A program made the translations under genes and the position numbers. From the NCBI GenBank assembly GCA_029547205.1, contig JAKPPT010000137.1:1-64000 (forward strand): DNA of 64,000 nt. Direction: 5' to 3'. Shown here piece after piece: positions 15,265 through 59,881 of the stretch. Numbering within the stretch: position 1 is the stretch's first letter; each line of letters opens with the position of its first letter. Under the pieces are notes generated by a model. The model made no database searches. It saw only the letters and a list, made by a program, of their open reading frames with translations, and was not told where the DNA came from. The stretch comes from Spirochaetota bacterium. Its GTDB lineage: Bacteria > Spirochaetota > Spirochaetia > Treponematales > UBA12059.

Positions 15265-15301
15265 AAAAAAGCTGTCTGCGTTTTAAACAGACAGCTTTTT
15301 T
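15265..15301. terminator. Bidirectional terminator between the CYTH gene and tRNA-Val
   Basis: A-run, GCTGTCTG (15271-15278), loop, CAGACAGC (15288-15295), T-run. The stem is perfect, and the flanking A and T tracts let it end transcription from both sides. Confidence 0.9.
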
Positions 15302-21632: not shown

Positions 21633-21654
21633 GGCTGTTCCCTTCGGAACAGCC
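21633..21654 (-). terminator. Terminator of the 21698-22690 outer-membrane protein gene
   Basis: GGCTGTTCC, loop, GGAACAGCC: nine perfect pairs with a four-base loop. On the minus strand a modest T-rich tract (TTTAATTT) follows. It separates the porin-like gene from the glk promoter. Confidence 0.75.
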
Positions 21655-34499: not shown

Positions 34500-34523
34500 G
34501 GGGCTGCCCGTATGAGCAGCCCC
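34500..34523 (-). terminator. Terminator after the FecR-barrel gene
   Basis: GGGGCTGC, eight-base loop, GCAGCCCC; on the minus strand TTTTTAC follows. It ends the two-gene barrel operon before the mutL promoter. Confidence 0.88.
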
Positions 34524-49907: not shown

Positions 49908-52052
49908 TCAGGATGCAGGCTTTATGTGATTTTTTGTTATTAAAAATTGCCATATAGTAATGCCTGCAAAGAGTACAATACCAATTATATCTGTAATAGT
50001 TTCCGGGAATACAAGCAGGAGACCAGCAGCTATAGCAATAATGCGCTCCCATATTTGCATCTCTTTAAAATAATAGCCGGTAATTCCGGAAGCCACCATC
50101 ACAATACCGGTAACAGCAGTAAAGAGCATAAACAATGCTGGTAGGAAATGCACATCAATAAGGAGCATCGCTGGATTATATACAAACATGTATGGCACGA
50201 GAAATGCAGCAATTGCTAATCTGCTGGCATTCAATGCAGTACGCATGGGGTTAGATTTAGCTATACCTGATCCAGCAAATGCTGCAAGGGCTACAGGCGG
50301 TGTTACATCTGCAATAATGCCAAAGTAAAACGCAAACATGTGTGCGGGAAGTACAATAGCCATCGCGCTGGGATCAAGAGTAGGGTAAAGCTGCCGCAAA
50401 AGAATAATAATTGCAGGGGCTGCAATAGTGGAAGTAATAATGTAATTTGCTGTGGTTGGCACACCCATTCCAAGTATGAGGCTTGTAATCATAGTAAAAA
50501 ATAGTGTTAAAAATAAATTACCATGAGCCAGATTGACAAGTTCTGCTCCAAGCTTTAATCCTAGTCCTGTTTTTGTAACAACACCAATAATAATTCCAGC
50601 ACATGCCGTCGCTGCAATAACTCCTAATGCGGAACGTGCACCCGTTTCAAGACTTTTCCCAATTGAAGCAACAGTTATAGTACTTTTTTTCTTTAGAAGA
50701 TAACGAATGAGCATAATAGCAACTAATACCGATAGTGCGCCAAGCGGTGTTACCTGACTGAGATATTTCATAACACCCTGTGCAGTATTGGGGTTAATTT
50801 TAAAAAGCGGTGGAACAACAGCAAAAAAGAGCAGCATAGCACCAACCGGAAGAGGTGCCCACCATCCTAAAATTGCTGATGCAAGTGAAAGAATTATAGC
50901 ATAGAATGCTGCAGTCATTGGAGTAAACCCGCTAACTAAAAGCCATACAATACCGATGAGCGGTATGAGCAAATAGCCTCGTTTAAAAAATATATCGCTC
51001 AATTTGGGTAGTTCGGATTTACTAAGACCCTTGAGACCTAACTTTTTAGCTTCGAAGTGAACACCAGCCCAGACACCGGTATAGTAAAGGAGTGCCGGAA
51101 TGATTGCTGCTCCTATAATACGAACATATGGAATGCCTGTAATTTCTGCCATAAGAAACGCTGCAGCACCCATAATTGGTGGCATGAGCTGTCCTCCGGT
51201 AGAAGCAGTTGCTTCGACTGCACCAGCAAATTCAGGCTTATATCCTAGTTTTTTCATCATGGGTATAGTGAATGATCCGGTACCAACAACATTGGCTACT
51301 GAACTCCCTGAAACGGTACCCATGAGTCCACTTGAGAGAACCGCAACCTTTGCAGGACCTCCAGATGCCCAGCCAGCTACTGAATTTGCAAGATCGATGA
51401 AGTACTGACCTAAACCGGTTTGTTCAAGAAATGCACCAAACAGGATAAAGATGATAATAAATGTACTTGAAACACCAATCGGAATACCAAAAATACCTTC
51501 GGTAGTAAAAAACAAGTGCTGGACAAAATCGTCTACCGATAAACCACGGTGTGCAAGTTTCCCGGGAATATAGGGACCAAAGAACGAATACGCAATAAAG
51601 AGAAGCGCTACAATAACAATAGGTAATCCCACGACTCTTCTTGCTGCTTCGAGTACGAGCAGGATACCAATGACTCCGATAATCATGTCAATCGTATTTG
51701 CAGTGCCAGCTCTCAGAAGCAGTTTGCTGTAGTTGAACAAAATGTAGAGCGGAGCTGCCGCTCCTAATAGTGCAAATACAGCATCAATTGGATGCAGATT
51801 TGTTCGTGACCAGCTTTTTTTCATTGGATAGAGTAAAAAAATGAGCGTCAATCCAAATGCCAGGTGTATGGCACGCTGTTTCATTGCATCTAATACGCCA
51901 AAAACTGTTGTATAGAGATGAAAACATGCAAATGTAATAGCAAGCGCTGTTATCACTTTTGCAAGAAAACCCGTATATGTCCTAAAATCAGCCTCTTTAT
52001 CAAATTTTTTTAAGACACTCTGGGCATCAATTATTTCTTGATTGTCCGACAT
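49908..52052 (-). CDS. TRAP transporter permease, fused 4TM/12TM (TAXI type)
   Basis: 714 residues. About 18 hydrophobic helices: a small DctQ-like part at the N-terminus ('LAFGLTLIFLLYPMK'), then a DctM-like part with 'GLMGTVSGSSVANVVGTGSFTIPMMKKLGY' and 'MGVPTTANYIITSTIAAPAI'. This is the fused permease that pairs with TAXI binding lipoproteins in cation-driven uptake of organic acids or amino acids. AAAGGAG precedes the ATG; a long imperfect hairpin lies just upstream. Last gene of the three-gene operon with 52162 and 52648. Confidence 0.95.
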   Translation of the reverse strand: MSDNQEIIDAQSVLKKFDKEADFRTYTGFLAKVITALAITFACFHLYTTVFGVLDAMKQRAIHLAFGLTLIFLLYPMKKSWSRTNLHPIDAVFALLGAAAPLYILFNYSKLLLRAGTANTIDMIIGVIGILLVLEAARRVVGLPIVIVALLFIAYSFFGPYIPGKLAHRGLSVDDFVQHLFFTTEGIFGIPIGVSSTFIIIFILFGAFLEQTGLGQYFIDLANSVAGWASGGPAKVAVLSSGLMGTVSGSSVANVVGTGSFTIPMMKKLGYKPEFAGAVEATASTGGQLMPPIMGAAAFLMAEITGIPYVRIIGAAIIPALLYYTGVWAGVHFEAKKLGLKGLSKSELPKLSDIFFKRGYLLIPLIGIVWLLVSGFTPMTAAFYAIILSLASAILGWWAPLPVGAMLLFFAVVPPLFKINPNTAQGVMKYLSQVTPLGALSVLVAIMLIRYLLKKKSTITVASIGKSLETGARSALGVIAATACAGIIIGVVTKTGLGLKLGAELVNLAHGNLFLTLFFTMITSLILGMGVPTTANYIITSTIAAPAIIILLRQLYPTLDPSAMAIVLPAHMFAFYFGIIADVTPPVALAAFAGSGIAKSNPMRTALNASRLAIAAFLVPYMFVYNPAMLLIDVHFLPALFMLFTAVTGIVMVASGITGYYFKEMQIWERIIAIAAGLLLVFPETITDIIGIVLFAGITIWQFLITKNHIKPAS

Positions 52053-52128: not shown

Positions 52129-52161
52129 CAAACAAAATCTCATTCAAATTATAAAACAGTC

Positions 52162-52644
52162 TTATTGTATGTGCAATGAAAAATTATTAGTAATTACAAG
52201 TATTGTGTTACTTTTTGAAAAATATATGAGGGGATACCGCTGTTTCTTAATTATAAGCGCATGACCTGGAATTGGTGAAACAGCAAAGCTCAGAGTGGGT
52301 GTCTCTCGATTGAGGGTAAGGATAAACCATTCTCCTTCCTGCTTAAAGCCTTGAGCATCGGTACTATCGATACCGGTCGAGTAATCTTTGAACATGCTTT
52401 CCGTAATAACAAAACCATCATGTTGTACCAGTATTTTTTCTATTACCTGTGATTTGTTAATGGAATGTATATAGGTATGTATAAAATATTTTTCCTCAAG
52501 TACTATGCTTCCTACAAGACAGGATTGTTCATTATATATGTAGAGAGCTTCTCTCGTATCAAGTAAAAATAAAACCAGTGAAAAACATACTAGTACAAAA
52601 AAACGGGGGAAGTACCCCCGTTTTTGAGAATCTATCATACTCAA
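52162..52644 (-). CDS. DUF1850 protein of the TRAP-TAXI operon
   Basis: 160 residues. Short N-terminal stretch, one hydrophobic helix (about 13-30), then a small periplasmic domain with 'EEKYFIHTYIHSINKSQVIEKILVQHDGFVITESMFKDYSTG', the HS..K..V.E.....DG pattern of DUF1850. The family is almost always next to TAXI permeases, and its role is not known. Start is TTG 52644 or ATG 52638, three to nine bases after the binding protein stop with no clear ribosome-binding site, so coupling is likely. A terminator-like hairpin lies within codons 7-14. Confidence 0.75.
   Translation of the reverse strand: MSMIDSQKRGYFPRFFVLVCFSLVLFLLDTREALYIYNEQSCLVGSIVLEEKYFIHTYIHSINKSQVIEKILVQHDGFVITESMFKDYSTGIDSTDAQGFKQEGEWFILTLNRETPTLSFAVSPIPGHALIIKKQRYPLIYFSKSNTILVITNNFSLHIQ
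52600..52624 (-). terminator. Intrinsic terminator inside the first codons of the DUF1850 gene
   Basis: On the minus strand AAAAACGGGGG, five-base loop, CCCCCGTTTTTTT. A strong GC stem with a T7 tract placed 20-40 bases after the binding-protein stop. Most transcripts should end here, leaving little read-through for the permease. Confidence 0.85.
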
Positions 52645-52647
52645 CCG

Positions 52648-53592
52648 TTATTTTTTATTAAAGAACTGTTCAGCTCCTTTATGGAGTGGAAGGGGCATAC
52701 CTTCAAGACCAGTAGCTTTTGTAATGTAGTTTCCTTGTTTATGTGCAGCAATAAGTGCATCCTGGTTTTCATACATAACTTTGAGCAAGTTTTCTACGGT
52801 ACTAGCAGGAAGGTTGCTAGTTGCAGCAAGCATTGCTTTTACGGCAACAGTCTGAACATCAGCAGTCTGTTTTGGGTAGGTTCCTGCAGGAATTGTAATT
52901 CGAGTATAGAATGGGTACAGGCTGGTGAGTTTTCCAATAATATCTGGATCAAGGTTTATGATAACAATATCTTTTGATGCAGCGACATCGGAGACTGCAG
53001 CGGTAGGGAATCCAGCGGTGAGGAATGCTGCATCGATATTGCCATCTTTGAGGTTATTTGCAGCTTCGGAGAAACTGAGATACTGTACTGAAATGTCTTT
53101 ATATGTGATGCCTGCAGCTTCCATAATCTGACGTGCATTTGCTTCTACACCTGATCCTGCAGCGCCTACAGCAACACGTTTGCCTTTGAGATCTGCAACT
53201 GATTTGATCCCTGAGCTTGCGAGAGCGATAAGCTGGCAGGTTTCTGAATAGAGCACTGCAACACCTTGAAGTCCGGTGAAGCTGTTGTTCTGGAACATCT
53301 CAAGACCATTTGCTGCATAATAAGCAATATCATTTTGCACAAAAATAATATCAACCTTGCCTTCTTTTAGCAGGTTGACATTTGCAACTGAAGCACCTGT
53401 ACTTTGAACGGTTGCATTCATGCCTGGAATTTTTTCATTCCAGATTTTTGCCATACCGCCGCCAAGTGCATAGTATGTACCGCTTGTACCACCAGACGCA
53501 ATGTTAATGAATGTCTGTTTTTTTTCACAGCCGGCAAAAAGAACAGTTACAGCAAGCAGCAAAACAACAGTAATCTTTAATGTTGTTTTCAT
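52648..53592 (-). CDS. TAXI-family solute-binding lipoprotein
   Basis: 314 residues. Signal peptide with lipobox 'LFAGC' (lipidated Cys22), then a type II binding fold: 'INIASGGTSGTYYALGGGMAKIW', 'DIIFVQNDIAYYA', 'DLKGKRVAVGAAGSGVEANARQIM' and 'AFLTAGFPTAAVSDVA'. TAXI proteins deliver substrates (for instance glutamate, alpha-ketoglutarate or other acids in studied cases) to the fused TRAP permease. Substrate here is unknown. First gene of the operon with promoter at 53648-53676 and a Shine-Dalgarno AGGAGG. Confidence 0.95.
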   Translation of the reverse strand: MKTTLKITVVLLLAVTVLFAGCEKKQTFINIASGGTSGTYYALGGGMAKIWNEKIPGMNATVQSTGASVANVNLLKEGKVDIIFVQNDIAYYAANGLEMFQNNSFTGLQGVAVLYSETCQLIALASSGIKSVADLKGKRVAVGAAGSGVEANARQIMEAAGITYKDISVQYLSFSEAANNLKDGNIDAAFLTAGFPTAAVSDVAASKDIVIINLDPDIIGKLTSLYPFYTRITIPAGTYPKQTADVQTVAVKAMLAATSNLPASTVENLLKVMYENQDALIAAHKQGNYITKATGLEGMPLPLHKGAEQFFNKK

Positions 53593-53647: not shown

Positions 53648-53676
53648 ATTATATGCATGCATCTCTAAACCTGCAA
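53648..53676 (-). promoter_or_regulatory. Promoter of the TRAP-TAXI operon
   Basis: TTGCAG (53676 to 53671), 17 bases, TATAAT (53653 to 53648) on the minus strand. AACCT/AGGTT inverted repeat (53668-53680) overlaps the -35 and a small TGGCG/CGCCA hairpin lies in the leader. Confidence 0.6.
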
Positions 53677-53706: not shown

Positions 53707-55359
53707 TTAGTATTTAAACGAGCTTTCGCCAATAAATTCCCGCACAATGCTGTCATCAGGAACATACTGCGCAGGAATTGGAGCAAAAAACTCAAGAAAA
53801 TTAAGGAGACGTTTTGCTTCACTGTATTCAACATCCTGTGGCTTGATGAGCCTGAGCAGCGGTTCAGCATACACTTTAAGTACACCTAATTCATAATCGA
53901 GTGCTGTATTGAGTGCGATATCTGCATTGTTCTGGAATGGGAAAATGTGCAAACGCTCTCCACGCTGGACGCTTGGCCACATATTAATTGTCTTTTGAGC
54001 CGTGTGTCCTCGGAATTGGTTGTCGCGAACAATCCGGCGGATGAGTCTGTTATCGGTTGTGGAAATTCGATTGTGTGCATCCAGATTTATTTGCGTTAAT
54101 GCGGATACATAAATTTTAATTTTATGTTCTTTGGGTATTTTAGGTGTCAGCTTATCATTGAGTCCATGTATGCCTTCCATAATAAGAATTTCACGGCCAG
54201 TCATTTTAATAATTTTTCCGGATGGCTTTCTACTGCCAGATTTGAAATCATAGGAAGGGAGCTCTATTGCATTTCCATTAAAAAGCTCAATGAGCTGTTC
54301 ATTGAGATACGCAACGTCGAGAGCTTCAAGACATTCAAAATCCGGCTGACCATTTTCATCAATAGGAGTTTTATCACGATTCACAAAATAATCATCGAGG
54401 CTAATGACGATGGGAATAAAGCCTAATACCTTAAGCTGGATTGCAAGCTTCTTTGATGTGGTGGTTTTTCCTGAACTTGAAGGACCAGCTATAAGTATGA
54501 CTTTGACGGTATCTGAGTGTTCTGCAACTTTGTCAGCTACTTCCGCGATGTGCTTATTCATGAGTGTCTCAGCAACCTGTATGTATTCTTTTATTTTTTT
54601 AGGTGCATTGATTCGGTTTAACGATCCGACACTGGTTATGCCAAGAATTTGTGAGCGTTTGCGGGAGTCTTCGGTAATTTTATAGAGCAGCGGATCATCG
54701 GTAAATGGTTCAAGCCGGTCTGGAGTTTCTTTTTTGGGGTATCGTAATAAGAAACCATTGCCATAGAGCATGAGTGCAAATGTCTTGAGAATACCGGTTG
54801 AAGGAACGAGTGGTGTAGTCTGGAGATCACGGAAACCTGCACATTCATTGAGTGTAATGACCGGATCATTGATCATTTCCAGGAGCATCAGTGTTTCTGT
54901 CTGTTTTTGTTCAGTAAAATACTGAACTGCCTCTTCGTAGCTCCAGAATTCTGTGTGTATGGGAATATCGCGTGCGACGAGCTCTCTCATGGCAGCTTCA
55001 AGAGCTTGTATATCATCTTCGGAAGCAGGACCATCATTAAAATAGTGATAAAAACTATAACCAAGCGACTGCCCTACAATAAGGTTACGGTCAGGAAAGA
55101 GCTGTTTGGCTGCTATTGCAGCTAAAAAACAGAGTGAGCGCCGATAGGCATATGCTCCCTGTGTGGAATCGATATACACTGGTGCTACTTTTGCATTTGC
55201 AGTGAGAATTGCATCGAGTGACATGAGTTCATTGTTCACTGATACTGCTGCAAGCGGCATTGGCAGAGCTCCAAAACCCTGAATGATGTTTGCAATCCGA
55301 ATCCCAAAAGGATAATTCATGGTTTCACCGGAGGGGTAGGTAACAGTAATTTGATGCAT
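53707..55359 (-). CDS. TGS-domain uridine kinase/phosphoribulokinase-like protein
   Basis: 550 residues. N-terminal TGS domain as in threonyl-tRNA synthetase (about 1-65, 'ITVTYPSGETMNYPFG'), a ThrRS-like second additional domain ('GQSLGYSFYHYFNDGPASEDDIQALEAAMRELVARD'), and a C-terminal P-loop kinase with 'ILIAGPSSSGKTTTSKKLAIQL', 'VISLDDYFVNRDKTPIDENGQPDFECLEALD' and 'ILIMEGIHGLNDKL'. The kinase half is like uridine kinase. The N-terminal half is borrowed from tRNA synthetases. The substrate is unproved. It lies upstream of the TRAP operon on the same strand, 114 bases away. Confidence 0.9.
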   Translation of the reverse strand: MHQITVTYPSGETMNYPFGIRIANIIQGFGALPMPLAAVSVNNELMSLDAILTANAKVAPVYIDSTQGAYAYRRSLCFLAAIAAKQLFPDRNLIVGQSLGYSFYHYFNDGPASEDDIQALEAAMRELVARDIPIHTEFWSYEEAVQYFTEQKQTETLMLLEMINDPVITLNECAGFRDLQTTPLVPSTGILKTFALMLYGNGFLLRYPKKETPDRLEPFTDDPLLYKITEDSRKRSQILGITSVGSLNRINAPKKIKEYIQVAETLMNKHIAEVADKVAEHSDTVKVILIAGPSSSGKTTTSKKLAIQLKVLGFIPIVISLDDYFVNRDKTPIDENGQPDFECLEALDVAYLNEQLIELFNGNAIELPSYDFKSGSRKPSGKIIKMTGREILIMEGIHGLNDKLTPKIPKEHKIKIYVSALTQINLDAHNRISTTDNRLIRRIVRDNQFRGHTAQKTINMWPSVQRGERLHIFPFQNNADIALNTALDYELGVLKVYAEPLLRLIKPQDVEYSEAKRLLNFLEFFAPIPAQYVPDDSIVREFIGESSFKY

Positions 55360-59853: not shown

Positions 59854-59881
59854 GGGCTGCCCTAAAAGCTCGGAGCAGCCC
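59854..59881 (-). terminator. Terminator of the MFS transporter gene
   Basis: GGGCTGC, 14-base loop, GCAGCCC, then TTTTTTAC on the minus strand. Confidence 0.88.

Follow-up and report, generated by a model that had tools for sequence, protein, structure and literature searches.

The junction between the substrate-binding-protein gene and the DUF1850 gene of a TRAP-TAXI transport operon carries, within the first DUF1850 codons, a hairpin that probably (at roughly two chances in three) serves as a leaky internal intrinsic terminator and would also provide a monocistronic binding-protein mRNA with a protected 3' end. The operon lies on the minus strand of the window, the 64,000-nucleotide stretch of DNA that was analysed, where a uridine-kinase-like gene (53707-55359) is followed by a TAXI-type TRAP substrate-binding protein of 314 aa (52648..53592; PF16868 NMT1_3, E = 1.6e-85), a DUF1850 gene of 158 aa (52162..52638, from ATG 52638, with an alternative TTG at 52644; PF08905, E = 3e-16) and the TRAP permease of the TAXI system, of 714 aa (49908..52052; PF06808 DctM, E = 5.3e-87). 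A search of the genome contigs returned no close relatives of the DUF1850 protein, and literature searches found neither a paper that names DUF1850 nor one that describes a stem-loop for any TRAP operon of the dctP type.

The intrinsic-terminator-like hairpin, AAAAACGGGGG-TACTT-CCCCCGTTTTTTT (52597..52625, minus strand), was recognised from its sequence, fold and terminator score, and consists, in the direction of transcription, of an A5 tract (52625-52621), CGGGGG (52620-52615), the 5-nt loop TACTT (52614-52610), CCCCCG (52609-52604) and a T7 tract (52603-52597) that supplies a U-run immediately 3' of the stem. The stem spans 52625-52599 and comprises 11 bp, six of them G-C and five A-U pairs; it begins 22 nt, and its G-C core 27 nt, beyond the TAA stop of the TAXI binding protein (52650-52648). 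The fold has a z-score of -3.8, with equally stable folds in 1/200 shuffles, and the hairpin was paired with a probability of 1.00 in all contexts tried, from 0 to 400 nt of upstream sequence, none of which was predicted to contain an antiterminator or other competing fold. By its sequence features the hairpin is a textbook intrinsic terminator, and its d'Aubenton-Carafa score of 40.4 exceeds those of the other four strong terminators in the window (6.3-35.8). The presence of a CGGGGG/CCCCCG hairpin with a T7 tract after the binding-protein stop and inside the DUF1850 codons, as proposed in the initial annotation, is thereby confirmed by sequence, fold and score. From these features we infer, rather than observe, termination at the hairpin, its frequency and the resulting protein ratio. 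As the A5/T7 arms are symmetric, the hairpin also reads on the plus strand as a weaker terminator-like element, with a score of 13.9.

The five terminators thus compared were those returned by a strict scan of the 64 kb that required a stem of -10 kcal/mol or lower and no fewer than 6 T in 8, the remaining four lying on the minus strand at 59854-59881, 34500-34523, 21633-21654 and 15268-15298. The hairpin at the DUF1850 start was the only one within an ORF, as judged against crude longest-ORF gene calls, and the scan placed it 26 nt past a same-strand stop, with three of the other four at 28-52 nt past one. Three of those four have same-strand genes downstream and come after a gene for an MFS transporter in one case and for an exported or outer-membrane-like protein in the other two; the terminator at 15268-15298 has no same-strand gene end nearby. 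The stem was found once in the 2.65-Mb genome with two mismatches tolerated, and Rfam gave no match above threshold, the sub-threshold matches over the hairpin (E 0.18 and 0.92) being attributable to chance.

Counted from ATG 52638, the hairpin makes up codons 5-14 of DUF1850, with the A-tract in codons 5-6, the G-C core in 7-12 and the T-tract in 12-14. This overlap with coding sequence is forced, because the DUF1850 frame offers no in-frame ATG, GTG or TTG between the hairpin and the DUF1850 domain, and its only upstream starts are TTG 52644 and ATG 52638. The ATG is situated 9 nt past the binding-protein stop and approximately 13 nt ahead of the stem, and it is because DUF1850 starts so close to that stop in this species that the terminator has to fall within its first codons. 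DUF1850 takes its positively charged N-terminus from the hairpin, and the T-tract begins a hydrophobic segment (FFVLVCFSLVLFLL), features that would fit an exported or anchored protein. The predicted Shine-Dalgarno interaction of DUF1850 is very weak (-2.9 kcal/mol), against -9.6 kcal/mol for the binding protein and -7.5 kcal/mol for the permease.

The junction was then compared across the same order using 44 orthologous junctions, the window counted in, and 82 more distant TAXI junctions (paralogs); these relatives are related to one another rather than independent, and no same-genus genome is among them. A 45-nt folding profile over the 44 orthologous junctions dipped sharply only at 0-45 nt past the binding-protein stop, where the mean z at +20 was -1.9, compared with about +0.1 to -0.6 beyond +100; neither the body nor the end of DUF1850 showed a comparable dip. 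When the strongest hairpin of the first 100 nt was set against the strongest one at 300-400 nt, the former surpassed the latter in all 42 testable orthologs (p = 1.6e-8) and in 72/82 paralogs. Best-hairpin positions at individual loci, including those behind the placement of start codons, are approximate, because in some GC-rich relatives and paralogs the best picks are not a dedicated stem but codons of an alanine-rich signal peptide. A terminator-like, T-rich tail was present at 25/44 orthologous junctions versus 3/125 control windows, the latter being coding DNA, in which folding is weaker than between genes; by genome GC, the tail was present in 8/10 junctions below 50% and 8/19 above 62%. 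The initial annotation had looked to conservation of the stem among relatives, and here the outcome was divided: the stem sequence is wholly different between genera, and a hairpin at the junction is nevertheless retained. Within one related group of nine junctions, a 13-bp stem had 98.3% of its cells paired, with both-sided changes at two pairs and compensatory changes giving a covariation of 0.256 versus 0.154 when shuffled. Across 20-kb regions around the junction in four relatives, an equally strong hairpin was present at 0/37 other same-strand junctions; in the window the figure was 5/36.

Retention of the hairpin is broader than retention of the U-tract. Hairpins without a U-tract occur at all three g8 junctions (L005, L006 and L009), in many GC-rich genomes and in an AT-rich genus of another class (L152-L165), whose members mostly have an AT-rich hairpin approximately 12-24 nt past the stop with no T run, a few having no hairpin at all. 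In one further genus (L007, L010 and L013), tandem hairpins follow the binding-protein stop, of which the first is without and the second with a T6-7 run. The position relative to DUF1850 is similarly variable: DUF1850 could start past the hairpin at 27/40 orthologous junctions, and the likely start falls just past it in L012, L014, L017, L022 and L026, inside the 3' arm in L019 (TTG) and in L033, L034 and L060 (ATG), and ahead of the stem in the window. The spacing of the hairpin had a standard deviation of 20 nt to the binding-protein stop versus 45 nt to the last possible DUF1850 start, where the former figure is bounded by the 100-nt search window and the DUF1850 starts are themselves predicted. 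Taking the best of all candidate DUF1850 starts, the median Shine-Dalgarno value was -4.7 versus -9.6 for the permease, which had the stronger site in 34/36 orthologs and 40/41 paralogs. That DUF1850 is nearly always without a Shine-Dalgarno sequence while its neighbours have one is a hint of translational coupling or re-initiation. A 4-nt overlap of the ATGA type between DUF1850 and the permease gene is present in many of the relatives (L005, L012 and L025 among them), implying coupled translation, and in the window and a few other lineages this overlap has been lost and a gap of approximately 100 nt or more is found instead.

Under the favoured reading, RNA polymerase starting ahead of the binding-protein gene would produce approximately 1 kb of RNA before the T7 tract stopped most polymerases, leaving a stable message for abundant binding protein, while a read-through minority would go on to make the full message including DUF1850 and the permease. 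Since the terminator lies 22 nt past the stop codon, a ribosome finishing the binding protein would be expected to stay out of the G-C stem. The most likely outcome of the junction hairpin is much binding protein and little DUF1850 and permease; an excess of binding protein over permease is most likely because relatives keep the hairpin at the same place, and the weak DUF1850 Shine-Dalgarno sequence, relative to that of the permease, fits a low DUF1850 output. The high ratio of binding protein to permease suggested in the initial annotation is well supported by comparison, through the order-wide hairpin and the precedent of ABC importers (PMC9045158). Two observations weaken the case for a leaky terminator that sets the permease level, namely the many relatives that hold the hairpin without a U-tract and a second promoter-like site ahead of the permease gene. 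In the relatives lacking a U-tract, termination cannot be the conserved function, because the hairpin is kept there without it, and mRNA protection may be that function. Given that many relatives have lost the U-tract and kept the hairpin, the pattern points to protection as the older or more general role and to termination as the form used in the lineage of the window.

A possible alternative explanation is that codons for Arg, Gly, Tyr, Phe and Pro fold in this way by accident, as might be argued from a stem sequence known from a single species only. This is very improbable, because synonymous recoding of the peptide MIDSQKRGYFPRFFVLVCF with the codon usage of the window gave folds as stable as the real hairpin in only 37/20,000 cases (156/20,000 with uniform codon usage); the stem is moreover built on minority codons (CGG 11.5%, GGG 9.2% and CCC 15.9%), and relatives carry a hairpin at the same junction position. 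Wider retention of the hairpin than of the U-tract, with approximately 19/44 orthologous junctions having no terminator-like tail by the scanner, instead favours a role chiefly in protecting the binding-protein mRNA, in which polymerase would read through, the downstream portion would be cut and decay, and 3'-to-5' exonucleases would be blocked, such that an excess of the binding-protein segment would remain, as happens at malE-malF of Escherichia coli. The long AT-rich hairpin without a T run that is mostly kept by L152-L165, despite the ease with which T runs arise in AT-rich DNA, points the same way, as does the finding that the binding protein was invariably the stabilised gene in five E. 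coli ABC operons, via differential decay (PMC5927463). However, the T7 tract and the A5/T7 arms of the window hairpin are exactly of the terminator type and come at a cost in codon choice, and a pure protector needs no T-tract, such that a chiefly protective hairpin is an unlikely account of the junction, if a serious one. The protective and terminating roles are mutually compatible.

The initial annotation further envisaged a translation-sensitive switch; in such a switch, a ribosome that initiates at DUF1850, or resumes translation past the binding-protein stop, would melt the stem and let polymerase through. The placement of the ATG between the upstream stop and the stem means that a re-starting ribosome could reach the latter, and the pil1 operon of Streptococcus gallolyticus operates in this way (PMC3894217). 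However, the Shine-Dalgarno sequence is weak both in the window and in nearly all relatives, no alternative fold is predicted, and ribosomes finishing the binding protein would be at the edge of reach across the 27-nt gap to the G-C core, since pil1 leader peptides ending 28 nt or more upstream gave no relief. Nor is it a conserved feature that ribosomes must cross the hairpin, with the possible DUF1850 start past it in the majority of orthologs (27/40) and inside its 3' arm in several others, and relief of termination by translation of the first DUF1850 codons is consequently improbable. Less easily set aside, though still doubtful, is that the terminator forms a true boundary, with the binding-protein and permease genes each owning a promoter of the same type and only DUF1850 needing read-through. 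Pattern matching identified a candidate promoter on the minus strand 55 nt ahead of the binding-protein ATG (TTGCAG-N17-TATAAT, 53648..53676) and a candidate second promoter, also on the minus strand, at the end of DUF1850 and 95 nt ahead of the permease ATG (TTGCAC-N17-TATAAT, 52148..52176), both of putative function. Two of the five TTGCA-N18-TATAAT sites in the 2.65-Mb genome thus fall in the TAXI operon, ahead of precisely these two genes; the genomic count is nevertheless near that of a reversed-pattern control (5 versus 3), for which reason each site alone may be a chance occurrence. Junctions with a run of six or more T had a DUF1850-permease gap of 98-160 nt in 5/5 measurable cases, versus 2/33 others, a correlation that was spotted post hoc and covers approximately four lineages. 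Graded U content was uncorrelated with this gap (rho 0.16, p = 0.33), and the long gaps of relatives show no promoter-like site. If the second promoter is real, the terminator would divide two units and chiefly limit DUF1850.

The closest precedents for the leaky internal terminator are the ABC importers of cellulolytic Clostridia, in which premature termination at stem-loops that follow binding-protein genes has an efficiency of 20.7-96.1%, and of over 90% where the stem-loop carries a U run, as determined by reporter tests in a Clostridium relative (PMC9045158). As in those importers, the binding-protein gene comes first in a transport operon, a single stem-loop lies just past its stop, there is no antiterminator, and the A/U arms pair with the U-tract. 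However, the Clostridia stem-loops are intergenic and belong to ABC importers, whereas the present terminator falls within the coding start of the next gene, in a TRAP-TAXI system (DctM permease and NMT1_3/TAXI binding protein) of another phylum, and termination that was measured in the Clostridia is here predicted from sequence. The E. coli malE-malF case is likewise similar in having a stable hairpin 3' of the binding-protein segment, and the coding-region position is common there, exonuclease-resistant protective hairpins often being located in coding regions; that study, though, left out gene pairs split by terminator motifs, and the present hairpin has a full T7 tract (PMC5927463). The pil1 leader shares a translated frame that enters the terminator hairpin, but has a leader peptide provided with a ribosome-binding site of its own and with phase-variable repeats (PMC3894217), whereas the DUF1850 junction has no Shine-Dalgarno sequence, repeats or conserved crossing. 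Stem-loops of the cip-cel operon of Clostridium cellulolyticum also mark abundant segments at their 3' ends, determine subunit ratios, and shift in position and energy over evolution, although most of them have no U run and act after RNA processing (PMC4423207). Among the RNA 3' ends of Borrelia burgdorferi, 63% are located within ORFs or upstream of them (PMC10319736); this species is a spirochaete, as the source of the window probably is too, judging by the company of its relatives.

The hairpin is most likely a known device in a new setting, namely an internal terminator placed in a TRAP-TAXI operon, such that a ratio-setting device shown experimentally for ABC importers would now take in TRAP-TAXI systems and a further phylum. 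The junction is also a clear case of a short intergenic gap that forces a terminator into coding DNA, and gene-calling and expression models that place terminators between genes would miss such cases. DUF1850, the TAXI partner, looks as though it is purposely kept scarce. As a tentative extension, for which the chances are appreciable but short of even, the TAXI operons of the phylum may generally possess a conserved 'brake' hairpin past the binding-protein stop, free to slide between intergenic and coding DNA, with DUF1850 being deliberately under-made: devoid of a Shine-Dalgarno sequence and starting before, inside or just after the hairpin, it would be translated only where a message is one of the few to extend beyond the hairpin and a ribosome re-starts on it once the binding protein is complete.
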